A stretch of DNA of 23,407 nucleotides, from the IMG/VR virus record IMGVR_UViG_3300008216_000087, positions 1-23,407 of that record; one strand, written 5' to 3'. A program made the position numbers and the translations under genes. Position 1 is the first letter of the stretch; every line of letters begins with the position of its first letter. Under the pieces are notes generated by a model. That model did no database searches. It was not told where the DNA came from and saw nothing but the letters and a program-made list of their open reading frames with translations. This document shows, one piece after another, positions 1,175 through 20,865 of the stretch. This DNA is from a virus.

Positions 1175-1185
1175 TGTGGTATAAT
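1175..1185 (+). promoter_or_regulatory. Extended -10 promoter candidate (TGTGGTATAAT)
   Basis: A perfect TATAAT at 1180-1185 is preceded by TGTGG, matching the TRTGn extended -10 element. It starts two bases after the stop of the fibre gene. The hexamer ends 32 bases before the ATG at 1218, leaving a short leader that holds a strong AAGGAGG. No good -35 box is visible at 16-18 bases. It is one of four copies of TGTGnTATAAT in the window. Confidence 0.65.
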
Positions 1186-1217
1186 ATATAAGGAAACAAA
1201 AGTTAAGGAGGAACGAT

Positions 1218-1469
1218 ATGCCAGAGATAGATGTGGAACAGGACTTGGCCCAGGTAAATCAACAGCTAGAACAATTGGTGGCGCAAGCAAATGAATTGAA
1301 TACGCAGAGGGAATCCCTCATGCAACAGATTCATAACCTCAATGGCATAGCTATGTACTTGAGGGGGAAGCAACAAGAGGGACAACCAGAAGAGAGTACT
1401 AATGGAGTAATAGACGTAGACAATCTAGAGAGGAGCGAACAATACCCACCTGAAGTAATAGCTTCGTAA
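1218..1469 (+). CDS. Small coiled-coil protein
   Basis: The product is 83 residues and not recognised as a family. Residues 5-50 (DVEQDLAQVNQQLEQLV and onward to RGKQQ) are rich in Glu, Gln and Leu with heptad-like spacing, so a helical coiled coil is likely. The C-terminal 30 residues are polar and probably disordered. There is no signal peptide or membrane segment. The ATG follows a strong AAGGAGG with good spacing, and a candidate promoter lies just upstream, so this is probably a real and well-expressed gene. Its place between a fibre and a neck-type gene suggests a small structural or assembly protein, which is inference only. Confidence 0.7.
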   Translation: MPEIDVEQDLAQVNQQLEQLVAQANELNTQRESLMQQIHNLNGIAMYLRGKQQEGQPEESTNGVIDVDNLERSEQYPPEVIAS

Positions 1470-1478
1470 GGAGAAATA

Positions 1479-2624
1479 ATGCCTTCATCCGCAGGCTTGG
1501 AATTTACAAGTGTTTATACTTATACACCATCGACCTATTCAGATAGGTCACTAGAAGCGCAGTCTCCGTTAGGGACTGCATTTACTGCTTTAACTACTAC
1601 TAGTGATTTCTTATATTTAGGCGATGATGAAAAGTTTGATATGGCTGTATTTGATACCGCTACCCCTGGCAGTTTCGGCGTATTGAAATGGGAGTTCTCT
1701 ACAGGCACAAGTACTTGGGCAGAATTTGTCCCTTCTTCGGGCCGTTTAAATTATGATATGGATGATGATACTGTAGGGGCATCCTATGATTTTACACGGG
1801 ATGGTGTAGAGATGTTCCCCTCTAATCAATTAAGTACTTGGGCATTGGGAACTGTAGATGGTACTGGTATATCTGCTACTAGTAGGTATTGGATAAGAGT
1901 ATCTTCGCAAACATCTGTAGTGGGTTCTGTATCTATTAATAGAATTCAAAAACGTCCTTTTGCTTCTTATTGTAGTACAGGAGATGTATTCAGATTTTTA
2001 CAATTAGGAAATATTGTAGGGGGAGGTGCTACAGATTTTTCAACTAGCACAACTCCTACTAAAGATACTGTTGAAAGTTATATACAAGCTGCGGAATCTA
2101 GAATAGATTATATGACTCGTAAATCGTGGCGAACTCAATACGTAGGTGAGGAATATCATGATTTTAATCTGAATGGTTTTAAATTAGATAGGCCAGATCC
2201 TTATAAACTTCTTAAGTTACAGATTTGGAATGGAGCTAGCTGGGAAACTAAAACCCCTGGCAGGATGAATGATTTCTTTCTTCTTAAAGAAGTTGGCATG
2301 GTACACTTCTCTAGATATTTCCTCCTGCCAGCACGGTTCATGTCATACAATGCTCCCATCTGGAGATTCGGTGGCGGTGAATTTATGATGCCTGTCAAAT
2401 TATCTTATCTTGCAGGACGAGATATCCATGCCGATGCCAGGGAAGCGGGAATAGTTTTTGATGCTGCTAGAAAGTTGGCAGCAATTGAAGTTTTGAGGAG
2501 TGCAGATTTTGGGACACTTATAGTAAGTGGTACGGATAGAATCCAATTAATGCAGAAGGTTGAATCATGGTCTATGGAGACTGAATTGATGTTAGATACC
2601 TTACGAGCTTTTGAGGTCTTTTAA
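1479..2624 (+). CDS. Virion protein with beta-sandwich N-terminus and head-tail adaptor-like C-terminus
   Basis: The product is 381 residues and appears to have two domains. Residues about 43-155 (FLYLGDDEKFDMAVF, LKWEFSTG, DGVEMFP, YWIRVSS) resemble the beta-sandwich modules that decorate many phage structural proteins. From about residue 163 the sequence (YCSTGDVFRFLQLG, then VESYIQAAESRIDYMTRKSW) resembles the helical start of head-tail connector or adaptor proteins of the gp6 type, which dock under the portal. The gene ends one base into the next start codon (TAATG), implying translational coupling with the terminator-like gene. A neck location fits the gene order (adaptor, terminator, tube). 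The adaptor assignment is by eye, and a purely tail-located role cannot be excluded. Confidence 0.55.
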   Translation: MPSSAGLEFTSVYTYTPSTYSDRSLEAQSPLGTAFTALTTTSDFLYLGDDEKFDMAVFDTATPGSFGVLKWEFSTGTSTWAEFVPSSGRLNYDMDDDTVGASYDFTRDGVEMFPSNQLSTWALGTVDGTGISATSRYWIRVSSQTSVVGSVSINRIQKRPFASYCSTGDVFRFLQLGNIVGGGATDFSTSTTPTKDTVESYIQAAESRIDYMTRKSWRTQYVGEEYHDFNLNGFKLDRPDPYKLLKLQIWNGASWETKTPGRMNDFFLLKEVGMVHFSRYFLLPARFMSYNAPIWRFGGGEFMMPVKLSYLAGRDIHADAREAGIVFDAARKLAAIEVLRSADFGTLIVSGTDRIQLMQKVESWSMETELMLDTLRAFEVF

Positions 2625-3076
2625 TGCCAACTGAACCTCTACCAGCTAGTGATGTATTAGATATTCTGAATACTACTTGGGATTTTGATAAAGTTACAGG
2701 AGCGACTAAGAAGCCAGGGTTTATTGAAGTTACAGGAGAGGGAGATCCTTTTAGAGTAGACTTAAATGTTAATGATCAAATTGTTGGTCGGGCTGGAACT
2801 CCATCTATGGATGAACAGCCTATCGGTAATTATAAATACGGTAATCGTCAATATATGGTAGAATTAGAAGTGTATACTTTAGTGGATAGGCAGCGTTTAT
2901 ATAATATGATGAGAGAGATTAGACGTATATGCCACGTTAAAATACATAGTCTTACAAATTTTCAACGAATACGATTCATGAATTTTTCAGAACAGACACA
3001 ACAACAAGTTAATATGTGGGTAGGAACTATCGGAATACAGCTAGAAAATAGGGCAGTCCTTTTGGAAATAACATAA
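2624..3076 (+). CDS. Tail terminator / tail completion-like protein
   Basis: The product is 150 residues. A central segment alternates strands (RQYMVELEVYTLVDRQRL) with a following helix (YNMMREIRRICHVK), then further strands (WVGTIGIQLENRAVLLEI). This alpha/beta pattern, the length, and the position directly before the tail-tube candidate fit tail terminator or tail completion proteins, which cap the tube and join it to the neck. The start codon overlaps the stop of the preceding gene in TAATG, so it is probably translated by coupling. No specific family motif was recognised, and another small neck protein would also fit. Confidence 0.5.
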   Translation: MPTEPLPASDVLDILNTTWDFDKVTGATKKPGFIEVTGEGDPFRVDLNVNDQIVGRAGTPSMDEQPIGNYKYGNRQYMVELEVYTLVDRQRLYNMMREIRRICHVKIHSLTNFQRIRFMNFSEQTQQQVNMWVGTIGIQLENRAVLLEIT

Positions 3077-3089
3077 ATTAGGGTATAAT
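3062..3089 (+). promoter_or_regulatory. Promoter candidate before the tail-tube-like gene
   Basis: TATAAT at 3084-3089 lies just after the stop at 3076. A -35-like TTGGAA (four of six matches to TTGACA) lies at 3062-3067 with a 16-base spacer. The hexamer ends 31 bases before the ATG at 3121, the same distance seen for the TGTGnTATAAT sites, but the upstream TGTG element is missing (AGGG instead). A dedicated promoter would suit a high-copy virion protein. Confidence 0.5.
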
Positions 3090-3120
3090 ATCTTAGAGGT
3101 ATTGACTATGGAGGAAAAAT

Positions 3121-5571
3121 ATGGCTGTCTTACGACCTGATCAATCACAACTAACTATACTGGGGGAAGTATTTCCTGGGGCTGATTCTGAGATTATAGT
3201 CCCTGCCATTCTTAGAGAGTTTGCTACGAATGTACTCAGAGGAGTTTTCTATACTAGTAGTTCAACAGCTTTAGCAGCACATCCTGAAGATGGTAGCCCA
3301 TCTGGGGCAGAATTAGAGGCTATTATTGTAGCTCTGCCTCCTGTTCTTGCGGGTGCTAGTACTTGTTATGTTAATCCTGTGGGCCATTTAACTACGGGAG
3401 ATTTTATTTGCTTCGATACGAGAGACTGGGTAGGAGCAGCAGGGGGTGGTGGTACTATTTCTACCGCTCAATATACTATTCCTTATATAGATGCTACAAC
3501 GCCTGGGGGTGGGTGCCAACCAGAGATTAGAAGAATTGAAAGAATTGAAGTCATTGGTAGTGCTGGGTTAGGACTTATCTATTTTGACCGCCCTCTTGCC
3601 TTTGCTCATTATTGTTATGATGGAAGTGATGAGAGAGGCGATTCGGCTAATTATCCTGATGAGTTAGAATTTACACATACTAGTGCTGCTTCTGGATTCG
3701 GTAGTTGGGGGAACCTAAGTGGTTACAGTCATTATTATAAAGCAGCGGTCTTTCGGACTTTGACAGCTGGTAGTTCAGAACAAAAATTTATTAATGTGAT
3801 TCCAGGGGTGTATGAAACTGTTGATACTCCTGATTTTACTCCCTTAGTTGAACCTCGATATTTCTTAGGTACTCAATCTAATCGAAACTTTACATCTGTA
3901 TATACTGGACAACACAGTTTTACAGGAGCTTTGAATGGGATGGTATTAACTAATGGTTGGCCTTTGCGGTTTGCTATAGGTAAAGAAGTTCCTAAGGTTT
4001 TTGGTGAGCTTGATACCTCTACACCAAATATTAATCTTAATGGGGGAGGTGGAAGTGGGGGGGATAATGATGCTAATTATCCTCAACCACTTAAAGGTAT
4101 CATAGACCTTGGGTATTATTCGATAGGCTTTGGTAATACTGGGCATGTAAACGAGTTAGGACTGGGTTTAAAAAATGGTAGTAATCCTGGGGATGTATGG
4201 ATTTGTCTTTCACATATTGGTTGGAATGGTGCAGCAATAGGTATAGGCCATCATTTATTAATTGACTATACTGATATGAATGTAGTGACTGGACGAACTT
4301 ATAGTGGTAATACAGTAGATGTAACTAATAAGATATTTACGACTCAGAGTACCGTGGCTGAAGCAAATCGGAATAAATTAGAGATTCGTCAAATTGTTGA
4401 AATAGGTAAAGATGTGGATGGTACTATACTTAATGGATATGATAACACTGATCTACATAATCAGACAACTTGGGTTAGATTGAATTATCCATTACGTTAT
4501 GCACATGACGGTGGTGGTGCGAACAACGCTACTACTGGATGGGGCTGTCGTATTATGGGGTATGCTTTATCTGCAACAGATGCTACTCTTAAAACAGCTA
4601 ATAGTGGTACAGCCTTTGCTGATACTTATATTGAACACTATATTCAAGAAACTAACGACTTAGATACTATTAGTATGCATCTTAAAATGAGAGATAGTGC
4701 TGAAGACGAAGCGAATGATTTTGACCGAAGATGGATTGGCGGGAAAGTAGGGTCTATGTCCCTGGTTGGTGAAGAAGGGGGGTTGATTACCTGTAATTGG
4801 GACAGCATTGTTTTCTTAGATATGTTACATAATCAGGCTAGACATGATACTAGTACTCGTAATAGTACTACTAATGTTCAACAACTATATCCAGATCTAA
4901 CAGGCACTACTACTTCTAATATGCCAGGTTTTGCTATAATGCACAATATTGATTCAGCTGACATATCTTTCCCAACAACTAAGCCTTACTATTTTTCTAA
5001 TGGTAGTGTGAAGTTATTAGGAGTAGCTTCTAGTACGGCAATAGAGTTTGCACGGGTACGAAGTTTTACATTAACTGTAAATAATAATGAAGACCCTCGT
5101 TACTATATTAAGAATCGCCCAGGTGACCATCGTGGGCCTGCGGAAATAAGGGAACAACGTCGAGAATATTCCCTTAACTGTACTGTAGCTTTACCTGATA
5201 CCGTGGGTGCTAGTAGTTCTAGTAGAGATAGTGCTATGTCACTCTTTAAAGAACTATTGTTAGAAGGACGTTATACAGAGACTGGGGGGCATCACGGTTT
5301 TCACATAGAATTAGTGTTTTCTAGGGGAACTATTGAAGGTGCACCTAACATCAACGATGAAATTGTTATTAAAATCCCAGGACGATATCCTGGGGAAACA
5401 GATTTATCAGGATATTCTAATACAGCTGTTACTGGAGTAGGTACACAAGGAGCTTTCTTACGGTCAGCCCCCCATACTATTATGACTGAAGCCCCATTCC
5501 AAGTAACATGTGACTTTGTATTTCGTAATATTGATATAATGATTAGAGATAGGGAACCGTTTTATCCATAG
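3121..5571 (+). CDS. Large structural protein, probable tail tube (or tail sheath-like) protein
   Basis: The product is 816 residues and starts after GGAGG with its own promoter candidate. A segment near residues 265-290 (HSFTGALNGMVLTNGWPLRF, then AIGKEV) and a C-terminal part from about residue 645 (SFTLTVNNNEDPRYYIKNRP) resemble tail-tube proteins: a beta strand ending in paired Asn, followed by an extended beta domain up to DFVFRNIDIMIRD. The next genes are two tail-assembly chaperone frames and the tape measure candidate, the classic order after the major tail protein. It is far longer than usual tail-tube proteins, so the glycine- and asparagine-rich middle may be inserted decoration domains. 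A sheath or a non-tube virion protein is the main alternative. Confidence 0.55.
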   Translation: MAVLRPDQSQLTILGEVFPGADSEIIVPAILREFATNVLRGVFYTSSSTALAAHPEDGSPSGAELEAIIVALPPVLAGASTCYVNPVGHLTTGDFICFDTRDWVGAAGGGGTISTAQYTIPYIDATTPGGGCQPEIRRIERIEVIGSAGLGLIYFDRPLAFAHYCYDGSDERGDSANYPDELEFTHTSAASGFGSWGNLSGYSHYYKAAVFRTLTAGSSEQKFINVIPGVYETVDTPDFTPLVEPRYFLGTQSNRNFTSVYTGQHSFTGALNGMVLTNGWPLRFAIGKEVPKVFGELDTSTPNINLNGGGGSGGDNDANYPQPLKGIIDLGYYSIGFGNTGHVNELGLGLKNGSNPGDVWICLSHIGWNGAAIGIGHHLLIDYTDMNVVTGRTYSGNTVDVTNKIFTTQSTVAEANRNKLEIRQIVEIGKDVDGTILNGYDNTDLHNQTTWVRLNYPLRYAHDGGGANNATTGWGCRIMGYALSATDATLKTANSGTAFADTYIEHYIQETNDLDTISMHLKMRDSAEDEANDFDRRWIGGKVGSMSLVGEEGGLITCNWDSIVFLDMLHNQARHDTSTRNSTTNVQQLYPDLTGTTTSNMPGFAIMHNIDSADISFPTTKPYYFSNGSVKLLGVASSTAIEFARVRSFTLTVNNNEDPRYYIKNRPGDHRGPAEIREQRREYSLNCTVALPDTVGASSSSRDSAMSLFKELLLEGRYTETGGHHGFHIELVFSRGTIEGAPNINDEIVIKIPGRYPGETDLSGYSNTAVTGVGTQGAFLRSAPHTIMTEAPFQVTCDFVFRNIDIMIRDREPFYP

Positions 5572-5580
5572 GAGGTAAGG

Positions 5581-5976
5581 ATGTCCACTAAACAAAAGAA
5601 ATTTAAAAGTGAAGTTGAAGTTGAAGGGTTTGATATATCTAAATATATACTGTCATCGGAATCTGAAACCTATACAGTAGTAATTCCTGAAACAGGGGAT
5701 GAGTTTTCAGTTCAAGTAAAACCCATCCCTTGGAGTAGGCGAAATAAAATTGTATCTGAATGTTTGAATTGGGGTGATGGCAGTTCTGTAGATTTTGATG
5801 GCGATAAATATGTCAGAGAATGTTTAAGACAAATGATAGTTCAAGCCCCTTGGGGAGTCACAGATGAAAAGTTTTTAGTTTCTATTGATGCAAGATTAGG
5901 AAGCGCATTAGAAGCCCTGGTTCCGAAAGCTTTCGGTGACGAGGGAGTTCAGACCAACTTAGCAAAAAAAGGTTAA
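5581..5976 (+). CDS. Tail assembly chaperone, upstream frame (gpG-like)
   Basis: The product is 131 residues, preceded by AGGAGG. It has a charged N-terminus, a beta-rich part (ETYTVVIPETGDEFSVQVKPIPWSRR, residues about 29-54, cited in part) and a helical second half (RECLRQMIVQAPWG). The small size and position between the tube candidate and the tape measure candidate match lambda gpG-type tail assembly chaperones, which hold the tape measure while the tube polymerises. Its last codons (GCA AAA AAA GGT TAA) hold seven As in the phase required for a -1 slip into the following frame, giving a 207-residue fusion. The non-shifted product ends at 5976. Sequence identity with known chaperones was not testable here. 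Confidence 0.7.
   Translation: MSTKQKKFKSEVEVEGFDISKYILSSESETYTVVIPETGDEFSVQVKPIPWSRRNKIVSECLNWGDGSSVDFDGDKYVRECLRQMIVQAPWGVTDEKFLVSIDARLGSALEALVPKAFGDEGVQTNLAKKG
5964..5970 (+). promoter_or_regulatory. Slippery heptamer A AAA AAA for -1 frameshift
   Basis: Seven consecutive As are phased as gcA AAA AAA Ggt in the upstream frame, which matches X XXY YYZ. After a -1 slip the frame reads AGG TTA ACT AGA CTT ATA AGG GGG GTG and stays open through 6203. No clear downstream hairpin or pseudoknot was found by eye. The next start candidate (GTG 5994) has a G-run touching it rather than a properly spaced Shine-Dalgarno site, so the fused product is the likelier way to make the second frame. Confidence 0.7.
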
Positions 5977-5993
5977 CTAGACTTATAAGGGGG

Positions 5994-6203
5994 GTGCCAG
6001 ACGAATCTAATCTACCACAGTTATTTAAAGACAATTATTGGTTGACTATTGTTACTATGCTAAAAGCGAATGTCCCTTGGGATTTGATTACATCCATTTC
6101 AGATGAAGATGTGTCATTATTATTAGGGACATTACAAGCTATAGCAGAGTATGAACAGGAACTTCAAGAACGTGAAACTCGTAAGATTAATCAAGGAATG
6201 TAA
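5994..6203 (+). CDS. Tail assembly chaperone, downstream frame (gpT-like, expressed by -1 frameshift)
   Basis: This second chaperone frame is -1 relative to the first. From the slippery site at 5964-5970 it is open to the stop at 6203, adding about 77 residues. The GTG at 5994 is only a nominal start, because its purine run (AAGGGGG) abuts the codon. Residues are helical and acidic (LPQLFKDNYWLTIVTMLKAN, then SLLLGTLQAIAEYEQELQER), as is common for the T part of G-T chaperone fusions, which binds the tape measure. The stop overlaps the ATG of the tape measure candidate in TAATG. Independent translation at low level remains possible. Confidence 0.65.
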   Translation: MPDESNLPQLFKDNYWLTIVTMLKANVPWDLITSISDEDVSLLLGTLQAIAEYEQELQERETRKINQGM

Positions 6204-7324
6204 TGGTAAATAGATCTATTGATGGTGAAAAAAATATCTTTGGAATTACTCTTAATTGGAAAAGTGCAGGCGATCCTGAGAGTAGGGGTGATGGTGGGCC
6301 AGGAGGTGGTGACGGAAAGAGTGAGGCTGACGAAAAAGCTGAAGATAGGGAAGAAAAAAAGCATCGTAAAACGATGGTTGATCATGGTAAAGAATTAGTT
6401 GACCATGCTAAAAAAACAGTTCGCTCTGGTCTAGGTATTAATATTGGCGTTGCGAGCCTATTAAAGCAGTCCCAGCTTTTCACTGGTACATTAGGTACTA
6501 TTTTCCAAATCCTTGGTGCGATGGTTGACGTTGTACTTGCTGCATTCATGCCCTTAATTATTCCTGCCTTAAAAACTATGGCTAACTCTATCCCACAGAT
6601 TCAGGAAAAGGCTGAACAGATAAAGGTATGGATTGAAAAAGCCGTTGAAAAGCTGAAGGAATGGAATGAATGGCTGAAAGGTAATAAATGGGTTCAAGCA
6701 ATTAAGTCAGGGCTAGGAGAGGCTCTTCAATATTGGTTGATTGGAGCTTTCATAGCTAAGATAACAGGACTCTGGACACCCTTCTGGTTGTTACATAAGT
6801 ATTTCGGTTTTGGTATGTTGAAAGGTCTGGGATTAATTGCTAAACAAATCGGATTTATGAGAGCAGGGACATTTACGACACCAGCAGGAGGCCCAGGAAG
6901 GTTTGGAGGCCCAGGAAATTGGGATGCTGGCGGGGGTGCCAGAGGGCAAGGCTGGGGCCGTGGAGCTGGCGCATTTGGTACTAGAGGTGTTGGTATGAAC
7001 AGAGGAACTGCTTTTGGTGCACTAGGTGTAGGAGCAGGAATTGCTGGTGGTTTTGCTATGGGAGGAGGAGCAGGAGCAGGCGGTGCAGCTGGGGGTGCAT
7101 TAATTGGTGGTATAGCTGGTTCATTGGTTCCTGGTATAGGAACTATGTTAGGAGCTACCGCTGGATCTATTATAGGAGGAATGCTTGTAAGTTATTTACG
7201 AAGGCAGAAGGATGAAGATGATGCGTCGGCTAATATTTCATTGTCCGACTATCATGCGAGTGATATAGGATCTAGGGAGCGAGTACCTACTCCTAATTCT
7301 CCTCTGTATGGGATGAGGTCATAA
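6203..7324 (+). CDS. Tape measure protein candidate (short)
   Basis: The product is 373 residues. The N-terminus is highly charged (about residues 20-75, with DGGPGGGDGKSEADEKAED). Hydrophobic helices follow (LGTIFQILGAMVDVVLAAFM and LIIPALKTMANSI), then an amphipathic Lys/Glu helix region, a second hydrophobic stretch near residues 175-215, and a long Gly/Ala-rich segment to about residue 330 that is hydrophobic like a glycine-zipper. Hydrophobic helices and position right after the chaperone pair fit a tape measure, which sets tail length and enters the host membrane during DNA ejection. At the usual 1.5 angstrom per residue it would specify a tail of only about 56 nm. A different membrane-active tail protein is the alternative. 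Confidence 0.6.
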   Translation: MVNRSIDGEKNIFGITLNWKSAGDPESRGDGGPGGGDGKSEADEKAEDREEKKHRKTMVDHGKELVDHAKKTVRSGLGINIGVASLLKQSQLFTGTLGTIFQILGAMVDVVLAAFMPLIIPALKTMANSIPQIQEKAEQIKVWIEKAVEKLKEWNEWLKGNKWVQAIKSGLGEALQYWLIGAFIAKITGLWTPFWLLHKYFGFGMLKGLGLIAKQIGFMRAGTFTTPAGGPGRFGGPGNWDAGGGARGQGWGRGAGAFGTRGVGMNRGTAFGALGVGAGIAGGFAMGGGAGAGGAAGGALIGGIAGSLVPGIGTMLGATAGSIIGGMLVSYLRRQKDEDDASANISLSDYHASDIGSRERVPTPNSPLYGMRS

Positions 7325-7920
7325 TGGATTCTTCAGTTTTACTTACATATCAAGAAGGTGAATATGCTGTCAATACTAATGAACCTATTCGCTATGCTTT
7401 GAAAGCTGATAGTATTACTATCTCTATATCTAAAACACCCATTCAAATTCCTATTCCTCAAAATACTCCCCAACTAGTAGACTTTGGAATTTTCCGTCCT
7501 GCAATTACTGTATCAGCTATTGTAGATAATATTGGAGGGAGTACGATATATAATAGTAGTGTTTCTACTGAATACGCAGGAATGAGTAGTATATCTGTGT
7601 ATAATGCTTTAGCTGATGCATCTTATAATTACTATATTCCATATAAAAATAAGCTGGAGGAGAAATTATATCAATGGGTAGCAGATGATGATAATGTTCT
7701 TACGTTAATTATAGGTGATGCCTCTTTTCCCGTATGGAAAGTTAAAGAAGATGGTACAGCTGGTGCTAATGATAATAATTTTGCTACGGGTGGTGGCACA
7801 TATCAAGTTGCTTTGCAACAAGCCCGTTTCCAATTAGATGCTGGTCGGGAAGATAGATGGATTTGTCAGATGCAGTTCGTGTCTATGTCTAGACGAGATG
7901 TTGTACCTAGGGTCTTTTAA
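7324..7920 (+). CDS. Small tail-tip protein, distal-tail-like candidate
   Basis: The product is 198 residues, coupled to the tape measure candidate by TAATG. The sequence is beta-rich, with strands such as DSITISISKTPIQIPIP and PAITVSAIVDNIGG, followed by a helix-like part (KNKLEEKLYQWVADDDNVLT) and a C-terminal beta region ending RWICQMQFVSMSRRD. Position between tape measure and hub matches the distal tail protein (Dit) or an equivalent baseplate adaptor that joins tube and hub. No family motif was recognised, so the role is inferred from order. No signal peptide or membrane helix is present. Confidence 0.5.
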   Translation: MDSSVLLTYQEGEYAVNTNEPIRYALKADSITISISKTPIQIPIPQNTPQLVDFGIFRPAITVSAIVDNIGGSTIYNSSVSTEYAGMSSISVYNALADASYNYYIPYKNKLEEKLYQWVADDDNVLTLIIGDASFPVWKVKEDGTAGANDNNFATGGGTYQVALQQARFQLDAGREDRWICQMQFVSMSRRDVVPRVF

Positions 7921-7933
7921 TAAGGAGTGATAG

Positions 7934-13150: not shown

Positions 13151-13151
13151 A

Positions 13152-13271
13152 ATGAAAGTTGTAATACAACTATTAGTTTTTACTAGTAGAATATGTAAGT
13201 TTGATATGTGGTTAGAAAGACGCTGTGAGGATATTTTAGATTTATTGGAGGAGAGAGATGACACTGAATAA
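13152..13271 (+). CDS. Very small ORF (39 residues), unknown
   Basis: ATG at 13152 is preceded by GGAGGG (13139-13144) at a workable spacing, and the frame runs 39 codons to TAA at 13269-13271. The product starts MKVVIQLLVFTSRICK and ends in an acidic helix (CEDILDLLEERDDTE). It fills the gap between the hub/fibre gene and the coiled-coil gene and overlaps the latter by 14 bases, so it may mainly serve translational coupling. The short hydrophobic N-terminus is not long enough for a clear membrane helix. Function is unknown. Confidence 0.4.
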   Translation: MKVVIQLLVFTSRICKFDMWLERRCEDILDLLEERDDTE

Positions 13272-13449
13272 AATACTAGAACAGCTATTAACTTTATTGA
13301 AGGCTAAAACGGGTGCGCCCAAGGATGAAGAAATGGCAGCAGAACTGGAATCGTTAAGTCGTCGTATCAAAGTCTTAGAAGATGAACGTAATGAAGCTAT
13401 AGTTATAGCTAAGGAGATACGAGAGGTAGTGGATAAATGGGAGAATTAG
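13258..13449 (+). CDS. Small coiled-coil protein
   Basis: The product is 63 residues with a strong GGAGGAG before the ATG. It is almost entirely helical and charged, with a coiled-coil pattern from about residue 22 on (DEEMAAELESLSRRIKVLED, then continuing to VVDKW). There is no membrane segment, so it is not a holin by itself. It overlaps the start of the following peptidase gene by 13 bases. Placement between the fibre and the peptidase might suggest a structural or lysis-accessory role, but nothing in the protein identifies a function. Confidence 0.6.
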   Translation: MTLNKILEQLLTLLKAKTGAPKDEEMAAELESLSRRIKVLEDERNEAIVIAKEIREVVDKWEN

Positions 13450-13892
13450 TAACGACACTCACTAAATTAAAAGATGACTTAGATATTTTAAATCCACCTG
13501 AACTTAAAGGACATAAAGATATGTCTTTAGGCCATGTTAGTAAAGCAATGGGCGGTGTGAAGAATATTACTTGGCTAGATAGGAAATATATAACTATCTC
13601 TGAAGCAGAATTCACAAAGATTATTGATTGGGATTGGACAGATAATAAAAAATATGTAGCTGAGAAGTATGACTGTGATAACTTTGCTTTCTCATTCAAG
13701 GCCAGAGTCGATAGGAAGTTCCATGTGAATACGGTAGGCTTGGTTATTGACTATGATGCGGGACATGCCTACAATCTTATTGTGTTCGCAAATGGAACCA
13801 TGAAATTATTTGAACCTCAGTCCGATAGTTACCCTAAAGAGGGCAGCAAGATGTATAAGTTTAATCGTGAGACAGTACAAGTAATTATTTAG
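13437..13892 (+). CDS. Papain-like cysteine peptidase, MOA lectin C-terminal domain type; possible lysis enzyme
   Basis: The product is 151 residues. The core has a Cys in EKYDCDNFAF (Cys80), a His in DAGHAYNLIV (His110) and a Glu in KLFEPQSD (Glu126). This Cys-His-Glu order and local text resemble the calcium-dependent papain-like protease domain of Marasmius oreades agglutinin (Cys, His, Glu triad) and phage proteins named after it. The N-terminal half (about 1-60) is helical and unassigned. There is no signal peptide, so export to the wall would need a holin. Position after the tail genes suggests an endolysin or a virion-associated peptidase; substrate is unknown. Fold assignment is by recalled motif, not by search. 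Confidence 0.55.
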   Translation: MGELVTTLTKLKDDLDILNPPELKGHKDMSLGHVSKAMGGVKNITWLDRKYITISEAEFTKIIDWDWTDNKKYVAEKYDCDNFAFSFKARVDRKFHVNTVGLVIDYDAGHAYNLIVFANGTMKLFEPQSDSYPKEGSKMYKFNRETVQVII

Positions 13893-13897
13893 GCCGA

Positions 13898-13908
13898 TGT
13901 GCTATAAT
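13898..13908 (+). promoter_or_regulatory. Extended -10 promoter candidate (TGTGCTATAAT) overlapping a start codon
   Basis: TATAAT at 13903-13908 is preceded by TGTGC, the same 11-base pattern found at three other gene junctions. It starts six bases after the stop of the peptidase gene. Its last two bases are the first two of the ATG at 13907, so a transcript from here would begin downstream of that ATG. No convincing -35 box is present. Confidence 0.55.
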
Positions 13909-14302
13909 GTCTACACGAAGCGAAGCAATAGCTTTGAAGGAAAGTCAGCCTTATCTGACCTTACCAGCTATAGCAACGAAACTTGGTGTAACCAAGCAAC
14001 GTATTTTTCGTATATTAAAGGATGCAGGGTTACCAACTAAGGGTTTATATCAACGAAAGAAATTGATATATTGTCCAATATGTAATAATCCTACTCCTAA
14101 TAAACAAAAGGTTTGCCCAGGTAAGTGCAAAGAAGATATTAAATTTATTTGGGTAGATTGTGAATTTTGTCATTTAAAGTTTCGTCGTAAAAAGCGTATA
14201 ATTAAAGATAGTTATAGGCGTGGGTATTTACATATTTTTTGTAGTAAATCTTGTTATAATCATGGACAGAAAGATGGTATAACAGGACAGAGGAGTAGAT
14301 AA
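13907..14302 (+). CDS. HTH and multi-cysteine zinc-binding protein, probable DNA-binding regulator
   Basis: The product is 131 residues. Residues about 17-45 (LTLPAIATKLGVTKQRIFRI) form a helix-turn-helix like those in small phage and transposon regulators. The rest carries paired cysteines: C56-x2-C59, C70-x3-C74, C85-x2-C88 and C112-x3-C116 with His119, consistent with two zinc sites, and it is Lys/Arg-rich. This suggests a DNA-binding regulator. A degenerate HNH-type zinc nuclease is possible, but no HNH catalytic motif is seen. The ATG at 13907 has no Shine-Dalgarno and overlaps a -10 box. TTG 13934 is the nearest alternative and would keep the whole HTH. No other in-frame start exists back to the stop at 13868. 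Ends in TAATG overlap with the next gene. Confidence 0.6.
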   Translation: MSTRSEAIALKESQPYLTLPAIATKLGVTKQRIFRILKDAGLPTKGLYQRKKLIYCPICNNPTPNKQKVCPGKCKEDIKFIWVDCEFCHLKFRRKKRIIKDSYRRGYLHIFCSKSCYNHGQKDGITGQRSR

Positions 14303-14538
14303 TGCATGGACATCATCATGTAGATAAGTTATATTGGAAGTTATTGATTGGCATAACAGCTATGCATATGATAGAGGATAGTATTATGGTGACCTTTTTT
14401 AAATTTGCACCTTTACCTCTATGGGTATTATATATAATGGTCTTATGTTTTTCAGGGGTTATGGCTAATTATGCATATTTAATTGCTAAGGGATATTCAC
14501 CCCTAAGTTTCTGGAGAAAGATATGGAATCAGAAATAG
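14302..14538 (+). CDS. Small two-helix membrane protein, holin-like candidate
   Basis: The product is 78 residues. The N-terminus is His-rich (MHGHHHVDK). Two hydrophobic segments follow, about residues 11-34 (with Glu and Asp inside it) and 38-63 (WVLYIMVLCFSGVMANYAYL), then a basic tail (FWRKIWNQK). Size and topology suit a class II holin, and a peptidase lies two genes upstream, so a lysis cassette is possible. It could equally be a superinfection or membrane-modifying protein. Start overlaps the previous stop (TAATG) and its end overlaps the sigma-like gene by 16 bases, so translation is coupled. Confidence 0.55.
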   Translation: MHGHHHVDKLYWKLLIGITAMHMIEDSIMVTFFKFAPLPLWVLYIMVLCFSGVMANYAYLIAKGYSPLSFWRKIWNQK

Positions 14539-15098
14539 AAATTAATGATGATTTAATTATTAAATGGGAACCTAAAGTTCAGAAATTAGCTTCGTCTGTT
14601 TTTATATTAGATATGGATCGGGATGATATTGCTCAAGAATTAAGAATAGCAATTTTAAAGGCTGCTAAAGGATTTGATTCTTCTTTAGGTACATCATTTC
14701 ATACATATCTCCATACTACTATGATGAATACGTTACGTACTTTAATTGTACGAGCACAGAGAAAACATATAGAGACTCAAAGTATGGACGAATTATTAGA
14801 TACTTCAATTGGATGGGAGACTCCCTCCAGTAAAATACAACAGGCATTGGGTGTTGATGATGATTCGTTCGATTATTTTGAAACCTTAGAGTTGATTAAT
14901 AATAGTAATGTAACTCCGAAAGAAGAACAGTTTATTCTGTTGCGGTTAGAAGGATTGACTATGGAGGAAATTACAGAAGATTTACATGAGTCAGCGTATA
15001 CTATAAGGGCAGCTCTTAGAGAAAAAGTGAAAGCATTGTTTAAAGGAGAAGGAATTTATGATTATGGAAAAACGGGAGAAAGCGATAGAAGATTTTAA
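14523..15098 (+). CDS. Phage sigma-70 family RNA polymerase sigma factor
   Basis: The product is 191 residues. Residues about 15-80 match sigma region 2: DRDDIAQELRIAILKAAKGF, then DSSLGTSFHTYLHTTMMNTL and RTLIVRAQR, with the QE, AxxxFD and FxTY features that contact core polymerase and the -10 element. Residues about 128-175 match region 4, an HTH that reads the -35 element (LTMEEITEDLHESAYTIRAA, then LREKVKALF). Regions 1 and 3 are essentially absent, as in small alternative sigmas. It probably redirects host RNA polymerase to phage promoters, and the TGTGnTATAAT sites in this window are candidate targets. GGAG precedes the ATG. A related sigma-like HTH protein without transcription activity is the alternative. 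Confidence 0.75.
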   Translation: MESEIEINDDLIIKWEPKVQKLASSVFILDMDRDDIAQELRIAILKAAKGFDSSLGTSFHTYLHTTMMNTLRTLIVRAQRKHIETQSMDELLDTSIGWETPSSKIQQALGVDDDSFDYFETLELINNSNVTPKEEQFILLRLEGLTMEEITEDLHESAYTIRAALREKVKALFKGEGIYDYGKTGESDRRF

Positions 15099-15555
15099 TA
15101 GCCACGATTTACATAGAATATTTTCAGAAGAGTATTATAAGAAACATGGCAAAGAATATGTGTCATCTAGATTCATAGGGTATGAAATGAAATTGTTAAA
15201 GGGTTTATTAGATGCACATGATGTCTTTGCCATTTTGTGTGGGATAGTGTCTTGTATCAAAAGGAATTCTGCTACAGTACACATCCCATATTTTGTCGCA
15301 GGGATTAGGTATTATTTATCTTCGGATGATAATCCTGAATTACAGTGGAGAATCATGTCCAGTAATCAACAGGAATATATTAATAAGTGGAATCAATTAC
15401 GTTTAATTAAAGCTAAATGGCTCCCGAAAGCTACAGATAAACGAAAGATGGAAGCATTAGAAAAAGAATTAATGGAGTGGACAAATGCGAAAGAGGGAAC
15501 GGCATCAAAGAAAAAGACAACTAGGGTTAGTAAGAGTAAAACGGAGTCTAGATAA
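15058..15555 (+). CDS. Unknown protein between sigma-like factor and helicase
   Basis: The product is 165 residues with AAGGAG upstream. Two starts are close together, ATG 15058 and ATG 15064; the first is used here. The body is mixed helical with a moderately hydrophobic stretch at about 45-68 (KLLKGLLDAHDVFAILCGIV) and ends in a strongly basic tail (ASKKKTTRVSKSKTESR) that could touch nucleic acid. It overlaps the sigma-like gene by 41 bases and the next gene by 71 bases. Position just upstream of the helicase makes a replication-accessory role possible, but no motif supports a specific function. Confidence 0.6.
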   Translation: MIMEKREKAIEDFNSHDLHRIFSEEYYKKHGKEYVSSRFIGYEMKLLKGLLDAHDVFAILCGIVSCIKRNSATVHIPYFVAGIRYYLSSDDNPELQWRIMSSNQQEYINKWNQLRLIKAKWLPKATDKRKMEALEKELMEWTNAKEGTASKKKTTRVSKSKTESR

Positions 15556-15763
15556 AACAGATCTTCAAGGGCGTATTGCTCCTGAGGGGGAATTTCGGAT
15601 TATTGCAGTTCATCAATTTAGTAAAACTGTATGGGTGGAAGCCACGGTTACTACATTTGCTCAAGCTAAGGATATGGTAGATAAGTTTAGGGAAAAAGCT
15701 GATGTGGTATACTATGTGCACAATGATTCTAATCGAATTATCTATGATTCTAAGAAGGAGTAG
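15485..15763 (+). CDS. Small unknown protein upstream of helicase
   Basis: The product is 92 residues. The ATG at 15485 has GGAG seven bases before it and no other standard start (ATG, GTG, TTG) lies in the next 20 codons, so the 71-base overlap with the previous gene appears real. The N-terminus is very basic (MRKRERHQRKRQLG). The remainder (about 35-88) is a compact alpha/beta domain: FRIIAVHQFSKTVWVEATVT, an Ala-Lys helix (FAQAKDMVDKFREK), then strands VVYYVHND and NRIIYD. Family not recognised. It ends three bases before the helicase start, in a likely co-translated unit. Confidence 0.6.
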   Translation: MRKRERHQRKRQLGLVRVKRSLDKTDLQGRIAPEGEFRIIAVHQFSKTVWVEATVTTFAQAKDMVDKFREKADVVYYVHNDSNRIIYDSKKE

Positions 15764-15766
15764 AGA

Positions 15767-17005
15767 ATGGAAAACTATGATTATATTGAGTCGGGGTTAA
15801 TATTAGGACTAACGGAGAAAAAGAATTTTGGTAAATTTAAATATACATCGCAAGATTTTGCACAACATGGGGATGCCTTTAAGTTTGTAAATAAATATTT
15901 AGATAGTTATGGAGAACTGCCAAGTGAGACTACGATTTGTGAAAACTATCCTACCTTGGATGATTCAGCAAAGAACCTTACGTTTGATTATGCCCTCGAT
16001 ACTTTCAAAGACCAAGTACTCTTTAGACAAGTAGTTGGGTCATTTCAAAAGAATAAAGCTCTGCTGCTGGAGAAACCTAAAGATGCGTATGCACAGATTG
16101 TAACTGCATTACAAGATATAGGTTTGGTCTATGATGAAGATGTCACTAATTATGATAGCGGTCATTTAGAACGGTACAATGAGTGGAAGCGGAAGAATGA
16201 GCTACGAAAAGATGGCATGATGGGGATACCCACCTCTTTCGATTCAATCAATAAGATTGGTGTGGGCTGGATGCCAGGAGAATTGATATCCTTGTTTGCA
16301 AGACCAGCTATGGGTAAGACTTGGCTATGTGTCCATGCAGCAGCAGTAGCTATGATGGCTGGATATAAGACCCTGCTTATTTCAACAGAAATGCCCACTA
16401 ACTCTATCAGTCTTCGGACTGATATTGTATTAGCTAATATGATGGGATATAACTTCTCACATAAGGCTTTACGTAATGGGGATGCTATTGATGAAGAAGC
16501 ATACAAAGATTTTCTCATTAAGTTGAATGGTAGGAAGATGTTAATATGTGACCATATTGAGGGGCAACAAGGAATGTCCTTAGATGCTATCTCAGGCTTA
16601 GTCCGTAAACATCAACCAGATTTCATTGTATTAGATGGGGTATATCTAGTTTCTAGTGGGGATGGTAAAAAGGCTATGTGGGAACAGTCCCATTCATTAT
16701 TCTATGGATTGAAGAATTTAGTCATGAGCCATAATATAGCCATGTTTGTTTCTACTCAAGCTAATAGGGATGCAGCGGATTTATATGCACCCCCTAGAGC
16801 GGAGCATGTGGCCTTTGGAGACGCTCTACTTAGGGCATCTGATGTAGCTCTGTCGATGTGTATGGTAGAAGATAATGACTTCCAGCGTATTATTCAATAT
16901 CAAAAATATCGGGACGGAGAGTTAAACATTGATAATTCTATGCTAGCATGGGATGTAGATACTGGGTCTATTAAAGAAGATATGACTTTAGCGGGAGAAT
17001 TTTAA
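15767..17005 (+). CDS. dnaB: DnaB-like replicative helicase
   Basis: The product is 412 residues, after AAGGAG. The N-terminal 120 residues resemble the DnaB N-terminal helical domain (FKFVNKYLDSYGELPSETTI). The RecA-like core starts near residue 150: GIPTSFDSINKIGVGWMPGE, then the DnaB-type Walker A ARPAMGKT (Lys184, Thr185), motif STEMP at 206-210, and Walker B PDFIVLD with Asp290. It ends with a loop region (VSTQANRDAADLY) typical of superfamily 4 helicases. It should unwind the phage fork 5'-3' as a hexamer, with the primase made from the next gene (TAATG overlap). No separate loader was recognised; the two unknown upstream genes are candidates by position only. Confidence 0.88.
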   Translation: MENYDYIESGLILGLTEKKNFGKFKYTSQDFAQHGDAFKFVNKYLDSYGELPSETTICENYPTLDDSAKNLTFDYALDTFKDQVLFRQVVGSFQKNKALLLEKPKDAYAQIVTALQDIGLVYDEDVTNYDSGHLERYNEWKRKNELRKDGMMGIPTSFDSINKIGVGWMPGELISLFARPAMGKTWLCVHAAAVAMMAGYKTLLISTEMPTNSISLRTDIVLANMMGYNFSHKALRNGDAIDEEAYKDFLIKLNGRKMLICDHIEGQQGMSLDAISGLVRKHQPDFIVLDGVYLVSSGDGKKAMWEQSHSLFYGLKNLVMSHNIAMFVSTQANRDAADLYAPPRAEHVAFGDALLRASDVALSMCMVEDNDFQRIIQYQKYRDGELNIDNSMLAWDVDTGSIKEDMTLAGEF

Positions 17006-17868
17006 TGATTGATTGGACAAATGTATTGTTAGATGTAGGTATAGCTCCATCTACGTACAAAGAAGAATTTTCTATTAAATGCCCTTTTCATGAAGATAAG
17101 ATAGATTCCTGTTCTATCAATATTGAGAAGGGCGTATGGATATGTTTCGCAGGATGTGGTTCAGGAAATCTAAAAGGATTTTTACAAAAGTATTTAAACT
17201 ATTCTCGATTGCAAATAGATAACTTATTGCATGAGCAGGAAGCAGACTTTGATATTAATCTATTTGATAAGTTCATGGTAGATGATGATGAGAAACTTCC
17301 TGAAACAGATTTTCCTTTTATGTGCGACTTAGTACCTAAATGGATTGTAGAACGGGGGTTCAATAGATATACATTAGAAAAATGGGGATGCGCTATTAAT
17401 ACATACAATGATTTAATAATCCCCGTTAAAGATAACGACAAGCGTTTGGTTGGATGGATTAGTAGGAGGTTGAATGCTAATCCTAAGTATATGTATTCTA
17501 AAGGGCTAAAGAAATCAAAGCTCCTTTTTGGAGCTTGCCATCTAGATATCCATCCTTTCATCTGTATTACAGAAGGAAGTTTGGATACGATGTGGTTAGA
17601 CCAACATGGTTTTGGTTCGGTAGCCTTACTGGGGTCAAGCATGTCGAAAAAACAGAAGGAAATGTTGTATAATATATCAACACAAGAATTTGTTATTTGT
17701 TTAGATAATGATACTACAGGATTACGAGCTATGAATAAAATCTTTAAAGAACTATCTACAAGTTTTATCGTATCGTATATAACATTACCTACAGGGATTA
17801 AAGATGTGCAAGATGTAAGAAATCAAGACCAGCTTTGTGATATAATAAATAAACGAAATTATTGGTAA
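17005..17868 (+). CDS. DnaG-like DNA primase
   Basis: The product is 287 residues. A short zinc-binding start fits CHC2-type primases: C26-P-F-H29 and C47-x3-C51 (CPFHED; WICFAGCG). A TOPRIM catalytic domain follows, with the Glu in FICITEGSLDTMWL (Glu190) and the Asp pair in VICLDNDTTGLRA (Asp234, Asp236) that bind metal. It is much shorter than bacterial DnaG and lacks the C-terminal helicase-binding domain, as in many phage primases. It would lay RNA primers at the fork with the DnaB-like helicase. The last codons before the stop contain a candidate promoter (17836-17846), so the C-terminal tail CDIINKRNYW may be shaped partly by that signal. Confidence 0.85.
   Translation: MIDWTNVLLDVGIAPSTYKEEFSIKCPFHEDKIDSCSINIEKGVWICFAGCGSGNLKGFLQKYLNYSRLQIDNLLHEQEADFDINLFDKFMVDDDEKLPETDFPFMCDLVPKWIVERGFNRYTLEKWGCAINTYNDLIIPVKDNDKRLVGWISRRLNANPKYMYSKGLKKSKLLFGACHLDIHPFICITEGSLDTMWLDQHGFGSVALLGSSMSKKQKEMLYNISTQEFVICLDNDTTGLRAMNKIFKELSTSFIVSYITLPTGIKDVQDVRNQDQLCDIINKRNYW
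17836..17846 (+). promoter_or_regulatory. Extended -10 promoter candidate (TGTGATATAAT) inside the primase tail
   Basis: Perfect TATAAT at 17841-17846 with TGTGA upstream, identical to the site at 20830-20840. It ends 36 bases before the ATG at 17883, with AAGGAG in the leader. It would give the SSB-like gene its own transcript. No clear -35 box is visible. Confidence 0.65.
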
Positions 17869-17882
17869 GGAGAATATAAATT

Positions 17883-18584
17883 ATGGGTGGAATAAATCGA
17901 ATACAAGAAAGAAGGGAAGAACAGCGCACTGGTATTAGTAATGGGAATCAAGCCGTAGGACGAGAGATTTGGTTTAAAGATGGTGACCAAGCTTTCATAA
18001 CTGCTCTAGCTACAGGTCATGAAGATGATACTAAGCTGGATGAGTTTTACATTTATACGTATAGGTCTGGTAATAGGTGGGTGAACCTCCTGTCTGACCC
18101 AGATACCGACACTTCGGATGTTCCTTCAGATACACGGCCTAGCCATAAGTTTGGCTTTTGGGCTTTCGTACACGAAGTAATACATCCTGAGAAGCGTGTG
18201 GACTCTTGGGAAGAGATATCTGGCCCTGGTGGTAAGAAGATGTATAAAGAGGTAGTCAATGATTACCGTCTAGTTGCCCTGACGTTTGGTCGTAGCGATT
18301 ACATCTGGAATCAGTTGGTCGATGTTTATAATGATTGGGGCCAACTTGATAAGGGTGTCATGCGAATTAAGCGTACTGGTGCTGGTATGTTGGATACTTC
18401 ATATACTATCTCTGCAACTGCTAGGGACATGGAGATTCCTGATGATAAGTTTGAAGAGCAAGGTGACCTTCCCCCTGTCAAGGAATACTTTAAGGATAGG
18501 TACGGTTCTGTGACAGCTTCTGCTGCATCATCCAATGGAAGCACTCCATCCTCTGAAGCAGTTAAGCTTGATGAACTTTTCTAG
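17883..18584 (+). CDS. Single-stranded DNA-binding protein candidate
   Basis: The product is 233 residues, preceded by AAGGAG and a candidate promoter. The core has aromatic and beta-rich text (VGREIWFKDGDQAFITALAT, FYIYTYRSGNRWVNLL, FGFWAFVHEVIHP) suitable for an OB-fold stacking on DNA bases. A Ser/Gly/Ala linker (residues about 207-225) leads to an acidic tip AVKLDELF, the classic protein-docking tail of SSBs. Position between primase and polymerase strongly suggests the replisome SSB. No bacterial SSB signature is obvious, so it is likely a phage-type family found by function and context. By eye its codon choice is a little less AT-extreme than its neighbours, which would suit high expression. 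Confidence 0.65.
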   Translation: MGGINRIQERREEQRTGISNGNQAVGREIWFKDGDQAFITALATGHEDDTKLDEFYIYTYRSGNRWVNLLSDPDTDTSDVPSDTRPSHKFGFWAFVHEVIHPEKRVDSWEEISGPGGKKMYKEVVNDYRLVALTFGRSDYIWNQLVDVYNDWGQLDKGVMRIKRTGAGMLDTSYTISATARDMEIPDDKFEEQGDLPPVKEYFKDRYGSVTASAASSNGSTPSSEAVKLDELF

Positions 18585-18594
18585 GCAAGTAAAG

Positions 18595-18616
18595 TGTGGG
18601 GGCTTCGGCCCCCACA
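18595..18616 (+). other. GC-rich UUCG-loop hairpin before a ribosome binding site
   Basis: Nine base pairs (18595-18603 with 18608-18616, TGTGGGGGC and its complement) close a TTCG loop. The closing C-G pair makes the extra-stable cUUCGg tetraloop in RNA. It begins 10 bases after the SSB-like stop and ends just before AGAGGAG of the next gene. There is no T-run after it, so it does not look like a standard intrinsic terminator. It may protect the 3' end of the SSB mRNA, mark a processing point, or tune translation of the next gene. Confidence 0.6.
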
Positions 18617-18628
18617 AGAGGAGAAAAC

Positions 18629-18880
18629 ATGATATTTAGTAAAGATGATTTAGATTGTTTAAATTCGTTGTATTATAATTTTTCGAGTTTTGACATTAGG
18701 TTAGGAAGAGATCCACGAGAAACGACAGGAGAACAGTGGCAAATAAATGCTCCTAATAAAAACAAGCTTTGGCTTACAGGGACAGGTATAACTCCTACTG
18801 AAGCTTTTAACGGCTTAATGCAACGTATGGCAGAAACAGGACACTTTGAATCTCCAGAATGGTTGGGGGCAGGCGCATGA
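18629..18880 (+). CDS. Small unknown protein between SSB-like and polymerase genes
   Basis: The product is 83 residues when started at ATG 18629, which has GAGGAG at a normal distance. A longer version from GTG 18596 would run through the hairpin and lacks a ribosome site. The sequence (FDIRLGRDPRETTGEQWQIN, then LWLTGTGITPTEAFNGLMQR) suggests a small alpha/beta fold, of a type often seen as replication-associated small phage proteins. The function is not recognised. The stop overlaps the polymerase start in ATGA, so the two are translationally coupled. Confidence 0.65.
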   Translation: MIFSKDDLDCLNSLYYNFSSFDIRLGRDPRETTGEQWQINAPNKNKLWLTGTGITPTEAFNGLMQRMAETGHFESPEWLGAGA

Positions 18881-20865
18881 TATTTACTAATACTAATTAT
18901 AAGACGGCTCAAATAGGATTGCAATCATCTGATAAATGGGTTATTGATGTGGAAACGAATGGCCTTAATCCTTATGGAGCGAATCAAATTTGTGGATTAG
19001 GAATCGGTTCTTATGATGGAGAATCGTCATTTAATTATTATTTCCCCTTTCGGCATCAACAAGGAGAAAATTTAACGGAGCAGGCTCGACAAGAAGTAAT
19101 AGGGTGGCTTAATGAAATCCCCTCTACTTTGATTGGATATAACATTAAGTTTGACCTCCACTTCTTAGTTAATGAAGGATTAATCTTAGACCATCAACGA
19201 TTGGTTGATGTCCTAGTGATGGTACGTTTAACTGAGCATACTGCTATTAGAGACTTGGGATTAACAGATACTATTAAGCGTAGCTATGGTGAGGAAGCAG
19301 CTAGCTATGATATAGAGACTAAAAAATATTTACGAGAACAGAAATGGCTCAAAGACTTTTCTATGGCACATCCTGATATATTAGGTGAATACTGCAAGAA
19401 AGATGTTTGGTATACACAGAAACTATATTTAGATAGATTGCAACAGATACAACAAAGTAATCAAATGAATATATTTGATATGGAATGTGAGTTAACTAAA
19501 GTATTGTTTGATATGGAACGGCGTGGAGTTATAGTTGATATTGAATATGCTGATGAGGTATCTAAGAAACTTATTCTTCGTAAAGAAGAAGTAGCTCAAA
19601 GTATATATAGTAAGGTTGGGTATGAATTTAATATTAGTAGTACTCAACAACTAGGAGAAATATTTACAAGCATGGGCATTCAGTCTCCTGTCAAGACTCC
19701 TAAAGATAAAGAGTCATGGAGTGAGGTTGCATTAGTACAAATAGATAATGAGCTGGCAGGCTTAGTTCGTCAGTATCGTTCTCTGGAGAAACTTCAATCT
19801 ACGTATATTAATCCGTATATTGAAACAGCAGAGCTTCACACTTCATTCTGTAATTGGGGAACCCTAACAGGTAGGCTCTCCTCTAGAGAACCCAACCTTC
19901 AGAACATCCCTCGTACCCACTTTAAACTTAGTGATAGGTCTTTATCAGATGAAGAACGAGATATTGTTAAAGGTCGAATAAATGCAATTGTATCGTCTAA
20001 ATCTAAGGGAGATTTATCTGATGTAGAACTTAGTAATTCCGTTTTAGATACGTGGGGGTTTGTAGGCGATGAATCTTTTGATGCTTCTGATGTAGACCAA
20101 GTAGCGGTAAGGAGATTATTTATACCTAGACCGAACTACACCCTGGTTAGCTTTGACTATTCACAAATGGAAGTACGTGTCTTCCTGAGCTATCTCCATA
20201 ACACAGAGATGGATGAATTGCTAAATAGAAATGATGTAGACTTCCATAGTGAATCAGCTAAGATAGCTTTTGGCATTAAGGAAGATCATTTGGAATTTAA
20301 ATTCTATAGGCAGATGGCAAAGAATATTACGTTTGGTATTCTATATGGATTGGGCAATAAAAGATTGGCTCAACAATTGAGTACCACAACTGACCAGGCG
20401 AAAGCTTACAAGCAACAATATTTTAATAATATTTATGGCTCTCGCTCGTTCATTAATAGAGTTATCTCTACGGTTGAGTCACGGGGATGGATAAAGAATC
20501 GGTATGGTCGTATCTATAGACTAGATAATACGTTGGGATATAAGGGTGTGAACTATTTGGTACAAGGCACCAGTGCTGATATTTTAAATGAGAGGATGAT
20601 ATATGTACATGAATATCTCAAGGATAAAAAGAGTAATATCTTGCTGCAAGTCCATGATGAAATCATTTGTGAAATCCACGATGACGAAATACGTGAACTA
20701 CCACAGCAAATACAACTCATACTAGAAGCAAACAGTTTAGATATCCCACTTAAAGTTGATATAGATGTATGTGACGGTTCGTGGGCAACTAAATCTAACT
20801 GGGCTAAATGGAGTTTACCAAAGCTGAAATGTGATATAATAGAAGACTATATAGATTGGGATTAG
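18877..20865 (+). CDS. polA: Family A DNA polymerase with 3'-5' exonuclease
   Basis: The product is 662 residues from ATG 18877 (ATGA overlap). The ATG at 18859 is less likely, with no ribosome site. Exonuclease motifs are present: Exo I WVIDVETNG (Asp24, Glu26), Exo II GYNIKFDLHFL, Exo III YCKKDVWYTQ. Polymerase motifs are complete: TGRLSSREPNLQNIP, motif A SFDYSQMEVR (Asp427), motif B RQMAKNITFGILYG (Arg478, Lys482, Phe486, Tyr490), motif C LLQVHDEI (His593, Asp594). The 5'-nuclease domain is absent, as in T7 polymerase. About 66 residues separate the NIP motif from RRLF where bacterial Pol I has around ten, so a sizable insertion is present. It should be the replicative polymerase. Confidence 0.93.
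   Translation: MIFTNTNYKTAQIGLQSSDKWVIDVETNGLNPYGANQICGLGIGSYDGESSFNYYFPFRHQQGENLTEQARQEVIGWLNEIPSTLIGYNIKFDLHFLVNEGLILDHQRLVDVLVMVRLTEHTAIRDLGLTDTIKRSYGEEAASYDIETKKYLREQKWLKDFSMAHPDILGEYCKKDVWYTQKLYLDRLQQIQQSNQMNIFDMECELTKVLFDMERRGVIVDIEYADEVSKKLILRKEEVAQSIYSKVGYEFNISSTQQLGEIFTSMGIQSPVKTPKDKESWSEVALVQIDNELAGLVRQYRSLEKLQSTYINPYIETAELHTSFCNWGTLTGRLSSREPNLQNIPRTHFKLSDRSLSDEERDIVKGRINAIVSSKSKGDLSDVELSNSVLDTWGFVGDESFDASDVDQVAVRRLFIPRPNYTLVSFDYSQMEVRVFLSYLHNTEMDELLNRNDVDFHSESAKIAFGIKEDHLEFKFYRQMAKNITFGILYGLGNKRLAQQLSTTTDQAKAYKQQYFNNIYGSRSFINRVISTVESRGWIKNRYGRIYRLDNTLGYKGVNYLVQGTSADILNERMIYVHEYLKDKKSNILLQVHDEIICEIHDDEIRELPQQIQLILEANSLDIPLKVDIDVCDGSWATKSNWAKWSLPKLKCDIIEDYIDWD
20830..20840 (+). promoter_or_regulatory. 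Extended -10 promoter candidate (TGTGATATAAT) inside the polymerase tail
   Basis: TATAAT at 20835-20840 with TGTGA upstream, identical in all eleven bases to the primase-tail copy. It ends 37 bases before the ATG at 20878, which follows AGAGGAGG. It would drive the recombination module. TTTACC at 20814-20819 is the nearest -35-like text, but the spacing (15) is short. Confidence 0.65.

Follow-up and report, generated by a model that had tools for sequence, protein, structure and literature searches.

Two putative promoter classes in an uncultured marine phage family that carries its own sigma factor

The phage DNA considered here (the window, a virus record of 23,407 nt that is probably a fragment of a larger genome) contains two classes of -10 sequences, and their sequence and placement make us confident that the sites of both are promoters. 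We argue that the housekeeping sigma of the host probably reads one of them, class E. We lean slightly toward the phage sigma as the reader of the other, class L. A host-read class and a phage-read class together make up a model that we find reasonably likely. The two sequence classes, their bias for strand and gene junction, their conservation and their split by gene module are direct observations.

In the scenario we propose, class E (TGTGNTATAAT; 13898, 17836 and 20830) would act as an extended -10 without a -35, and the host sigma would use it to transcribe the sigma operon and the replication genes. Two of these sites fall within the final codons of the preceding gene. Class L (TAGTATAATA; 1179 and 3083), with little or no -35, would drive the tail genes, as well as the head operon in longer relatives. 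It is a candidate late promoter for a two-domain phage sigma. The host sigma would act before the phage sigma, yielding that sigma and the replication proteins, and the phage sigma would then switch on the structural genes. We infer this time order by analogy with phiEco32, 7-11 and phage K (PMC4331800, PMC11598898).

The scenario is a first outline of how transcription may be organized in this uncultured marine phage family. The family's sigma factor had no match among sequenced phages, and the scenario names AGTATAATA as a concrete candidate target for it. The family also offers a natural experiment. One promoter position in the end of the polymerase gene is kept by sister lineages with its parts swapped, a -35 and a weak -10 on one side, TGTG and a perfect -10 on the other.

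Table 1. Putative promoter sites and the genes around them in the window
Feature	Position	Strand	Context	Basis or conservation
Putative class L site TGTGGTATAATA, core GTATAATA at 1179-1186	1175..1186	+	before tail operon gene 1218; expected start ~1191	
Putative class L site GTATAATA	3083..3090	+	before tail gene 3121; expected start ~3095	
Putative class E site TGTGCTATAAT	13898..13908	+	head of the operon of the HTH gene, gene 14302 and sigma; overlaps ATG 13907	7/7 clade contigs
Putative class E site TGTGATATAAT	17836..17846	+	last primase codons, before SSB-like gene 17883	9/9 aligned clade contigs
Putative class E site TGTGATATAAT	20830..20840	+	last DNA polymerase codons, before gene 20878	8/8 aligned clade contigs
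Possible weaker class E site TGTGGTATACT	15703..15713	+	within coding sequence, 54 nt before DnaB gene	
HTH/zinc-ribbon gene	13907..14302	+	first of sigma operon	weak HTH and treble-clef matches
Phage sigma factor, sigma2 and sigma4, no sigma3	14523..15098	+		PF04542 3e-10, PHROG sigma factor 2e-11, model, fold search
DnaB-like helicase	15767..17005	+		
DnaG-like primase	17005..17868	+		
Family A DNA polymerase	18859..20865	+		

Frequency and placement of the sites

TGTGNTATAAT occurs four times in the window (1175, 13898, 17836 and 20830), each time on the + strand and never on the - strand. The expectation for both strands is 0.18, and 0 of 100 shuffles gave four copies. When the letters within the halves of the word are permuted, the resulting words have a mean forward count of 0.15 for the window and 0.23 for G001, a 57 kb relative; the observed numbers are 4 and 7. 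All four window copies lie at most 60 nt 5' of a gene start, a zone that makes up 6.5% of the window, and all seven copies in G001 are forward and fall in the same zone (9.6% there), with the qualification that gene starts come from a simple gene caller and some may be misplaced. The word is absent from 707 coding control segments. A preliminary description of this DNA had claimed an excess of + strand copies at gene junctions, three of them ending 32-37 bases before an ATG. Both claims hold, the gaps being 32 nt (1175), 36 nt (17836) and 37 nt (20830). The enrichment before starts that it asked to see beyond the window is there in G001.

Generic sigma70 scans do not find promoters to be commoner in the window than in shuffles. 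In a terminator scan a strong hairpin, TGTGGGGGCcgaaGCCCCCACA (18595-18616), at the start of gene 18596, was called terminator-like on the - strand. A literature search on the TGTGNTATAAT motif or this phage family found nothing.

The four sites were originally taken as a single promoter set. We dropped this grouping, since conservation places 1175 beside a fifth site at 3084. At the junction before gene 1218 GTATAATA is present in 9 of 9 distinct contigs and TGTG in 2 of 9. There is no conserved TG before the -10 at this site, and the TGTG at 1175 is incidental. At the junction before gene 3121 GTATAATA is found in all five distinct contigs with a usable start. The fifth site had been correctly described as lacking TGTG, but it is not a weaker copy of the same element; it is the GTATAATA at 3083-3090 and belongs to a separate conserved class. 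Three of the four sites thus form one class, and 1175 falls in the other.

Class L sites

Class L takes the form (T)AGTATAATA, also TAGTATAATA. It is uniform past TATAAT, with TAG before and A after, and has no preference for TG. It is one motif that stands ahead of structural genes across the family: GTATAAT lies 63-138 nt upstream of the gene preceding the major head protein in 6 of the 6 genomes holding that gene. When words enriched upstream of genes are ranked in the longer family genomes, GTATAATA, AGTATAATA or their subwords come out at or near the top. Six distinct genomes hold 82 forward and 13 reverse copies of GTATAATA, mostly at most 120 nt upstream of starts, and it ranks first of 280 anagrams. 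The form [AG]GTATAATA is seen in 0.14% of coding control segments. In the window alone there are 4 copies of GTATAATA against 2.5, which is no excess, so the case for class L rests on the relatives.

Two observations blur the picture. A -35 with at least 5/6 matches is present at 6.7% of class L sites (n=75) compared with 1.5% of controls; strong -35 columns are absent, and this weak excess means the host sigma may read some of the sites. The module split is also imperfect, since the primase 3' end of five contigs (L092, L093, L099, L100 and L107) has GTATAATA where the window has TGTGATATAAT. This is perhaps a switch of promoter class at one position.

Right behind the tail fibre gene the window encodes a protein (13437-13892) with a match to an agglutinin/lectin C-terminal domain (Pfam 1e-7).

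Class E sites

The three class E sites lie in the sigma and replication module and are specific to the subclade of the window. Related contigs, with polymerases 82-89% identical to that of the window, repeat its TGTGNTATAAT sites at matching junctions, although the class E count is small and these contigs are not independent of each other. Each site has TG one base ahead of a TATAAT-like -10, in the TRTG form. At the 13898 junction the free base is C or T in related contigs, TGTG and TATAAT are fixed, and the sequence just upstream drifts. There is no -35 at 13898 or 17836, and no TTGACA partner was seen in relatives at either; an exchange is seen at 20830. The earlier view of the element as an extended -10 lacking -35 boxes is upheld by this pattern.

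At 17836 and 20830 the word is part of a gene. The codons TGT GAT ATA ATA are identical across all relatives at both sites, and they fall inside the longest invariant codon run of the primase gene (5 codons) and inside one of the longer such runs of the polymerase gene. A single codon is kept in 47% (primase) and 31% (polymerase) of invariant amino-acid columns, so each coding site by itself is moderate evidence. The primase and the polymerase are unrelated proteins and share terminal CDII codons. The near-copy at 15703 keeps TGTG[GA]TATACT in 6 clade contigs, and the encoded VYYVH is likewise conserved.

The copy at 13898 runs into the ATG of the gene that follows (TATAATG), which is odd for a promoter. 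The same arrangement, with TGTGNTATAATG, is seen at the start codon of a RuvC-like resolvase gene, in G001 (oriented 23830; L005 15451) and in the more distant contig L015 (13233). Because of the overlap the HTH and RuvC genes themselves would not be read from the site, and the genes behind them could be.

Coding is a confounder within the HTH/zinc-ribbon gene, where CYN codons spell TGTTATAAT at 14252. We attribute this copy to coding and do not count it as a promoter. Matches to TGTGTTATAAT in L025, L027 and L028 look like the same CYN-type coding motif.

Exchange of putative promoter parts at the polymerase 3' end

At the position homologous to 20830, 22 distinct contigs from sister subclades have a -35 with at least 5/6 matches, and the spacing from it to a TA(T/C)-type -10 is exactly 17 bp. 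TG is also present in 21 of them, which gives the form TTGACA-N17-TGnTAYAMT. Five contigs of the window's clade have at most 2/6 matches to a -35 here, yet they have TGTG and a perfect TATAAT. The -35 is in frame and mostly encodes Leu-Thr. Its Leu codon is TTG in 21 of 22 contigs versus 20% TTG usage in these genes, a bias whose p value is inexact because the contigs are related. The tail of the polymerase protein changes between subclades; a -10 persists.

The same difference extends beyond this position. Among TG-type sites near starts, a -35 with at least 5/6 matches accompanies 36% in the other subclades (control 0.6%) and 0 of 11 in the window's clade. Strict TTGACA promoters number 3 to 18 in other genomes and none in G001 (57 kb). 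G013 has a cluster of TTGACA-N17-18 promoters at 56-66 kb, several with TGTGN, that looks like an early region. We also considered whether the TTGACA ahead of DnaB (21/56 by pattern) is a conserved promoter for the host and rejected this, as the TTGAC there mostly encodes Val-Asp in the upstream gene and has no steady -10.

In sigma70 promoters TGn can make up for a -10 that is weak or a -35 that is absent, and in Gram-positive bacteria the element takes the form TRTG (PMC2613000). The swap of -35, TGn and -10 seen here follows the mix-and-match logic of housekeeping-sigma promoters, which makes the host sigma the likely reader of class E. The choice between host and phage sigma had been left open for all the sites; the evidence now favors the host sigma for the replication set and leaves the phage sigma as a candidate for the class of 1175 and 3084.

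The phage sigma factor

The phage sigma is 191 aa long. Its sigma2 match is clear, and its sigma4 match is below the Pfam cut-off in a stretch with predicted helices. The structural model, of moderate confidence (mean pLDDT 71), shows helices corresponding to two domains, with a disordered linker, and its domain placement is unreliable. A fold search matches B. subtilis SigH and ECF sigmas, and there are sequence matches as well. An FHTYLHT stretch is invariant across 28 sequences. The WW pair of RpoD region 2.3-2.4 is not kept, in a comparison with a hand-entered RpoD sequence. The gene is present in 53 of the 53 contigs that carry both flanking genes. This constancy and the two-domain make-up are consistent with the phage sigma reading the equally constant class L, as a fit rather than a proof.

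A bacterial host is indicated by the sigma factor and by gene starts of SD-like type. A search for the host through bacterial genomes found nothing. Head and tail proteins of the family (major head protein, L160 820-2184; window 1479-2624) are distant relatives (26-31% identity) of those of the haloarchaeal tailed viruses HVTV-1, HCTV-1 and HCTV-5.

Alternative explanations

One could suppose that the host housekeeping sigma reads both classes, that the phage sigma acts elsewhere, and that class L is a -10-only promoter with an unknown activator. Both classes do have a perfect TATAAT, the weak -35 excess at class L sites fits, and one early-region site in G018 has TTGACA ahead of AGTATAATA. 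Against this, class L is uniform beyond TATAAT and indifferent to TG, and it precedes head and tail genes across a family in which the sigma gene is always present. We consider this explanation unlikely, though it keeps some weight. The reverse assignment, in which the phage sigma reads TGTGNTATAAT and class E is a phage-specific class, is improbable. In its favor, class E is clade-specific, has no -35 and sits beside the sigma gene. Against it, the homologous position at the polymerase end carries textbook TTGACA-17 promoters in sister lineages. In sigma70 the TG is contacted by a sigma3 segment and region 2.4 (PMC2613000), and the phage sigma has no sigma3 part. The sigma gene also lies 3' of a class E site, so transcription of its operon would first have to be started by a factor other than the phage sigma.

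It is very improbable that the sites are not promoters and arise merely as by-products where genes are coded or where junctions are AT-rich. Coding can spell part of the word, as the CYN codons do, and of the four sites two are embedded in codons and a third covers part of an ATG. Against this, the -10 stays where the polymerase tail protein varies by subclade, two unrelated proteins end in the same CDII codons, and non-coding copies are conserved while the coding controls hold none. A different kind of speculation concerns the near-total loss of TTGACA in the window's subclade. T4 AsiA blocks region 4 of the host sigma. A hypothetical AsiA-like protein could have done the same here, and we give this little credence. 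Middle promoters would then have become -35-free TGTGNTATAAT sites in primase and polymerase codons, and the small phage sigma would take over the structural genes. The window, as a fragment, may lack the early region.

Comparison with known systems

T4 late promoters have the core TATAAATA and use the gp55 sigma. Class L resembles them as an A/T-rich -10-only element before structural genes, but its core, TAGTATAATA, differs in its bases from that of T4, and the phage sigma described here retains a sigma4-like domain. The proteins gp33, gp55 and gp45 are covered in PMC11598898. Among housekeeping extended -10 promoters (PMC2613000), TGTGNTATAAT matches the TRTG form, and the -35/TGn type has its counterpart in the sister subclades, whose -10 is weak (TACACT). 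The difference is that here relatives carry the two types at a single homologous position within the polymerase gene.

In phiEco32 and 7-11 (PMC4331800) a phage sigma distantly related to the sigmaA family likewise goes with a -10-like motif only, and a separate promoter class stands ahead of the structural genes. Their core is tAATGTAtA or TGATGT, whereas here it is AGTATAATA. Staphylococcus phage K (PMC11598898) has host sigmaA-type early and middle promoters, often with TG, and late promoters with at most a -10; no shared late motif was found in phage K, whereas class L is uniform. With its two putative classes, this family adds a member to the temporal promoter classes known from phages like T4 and phiEco32.
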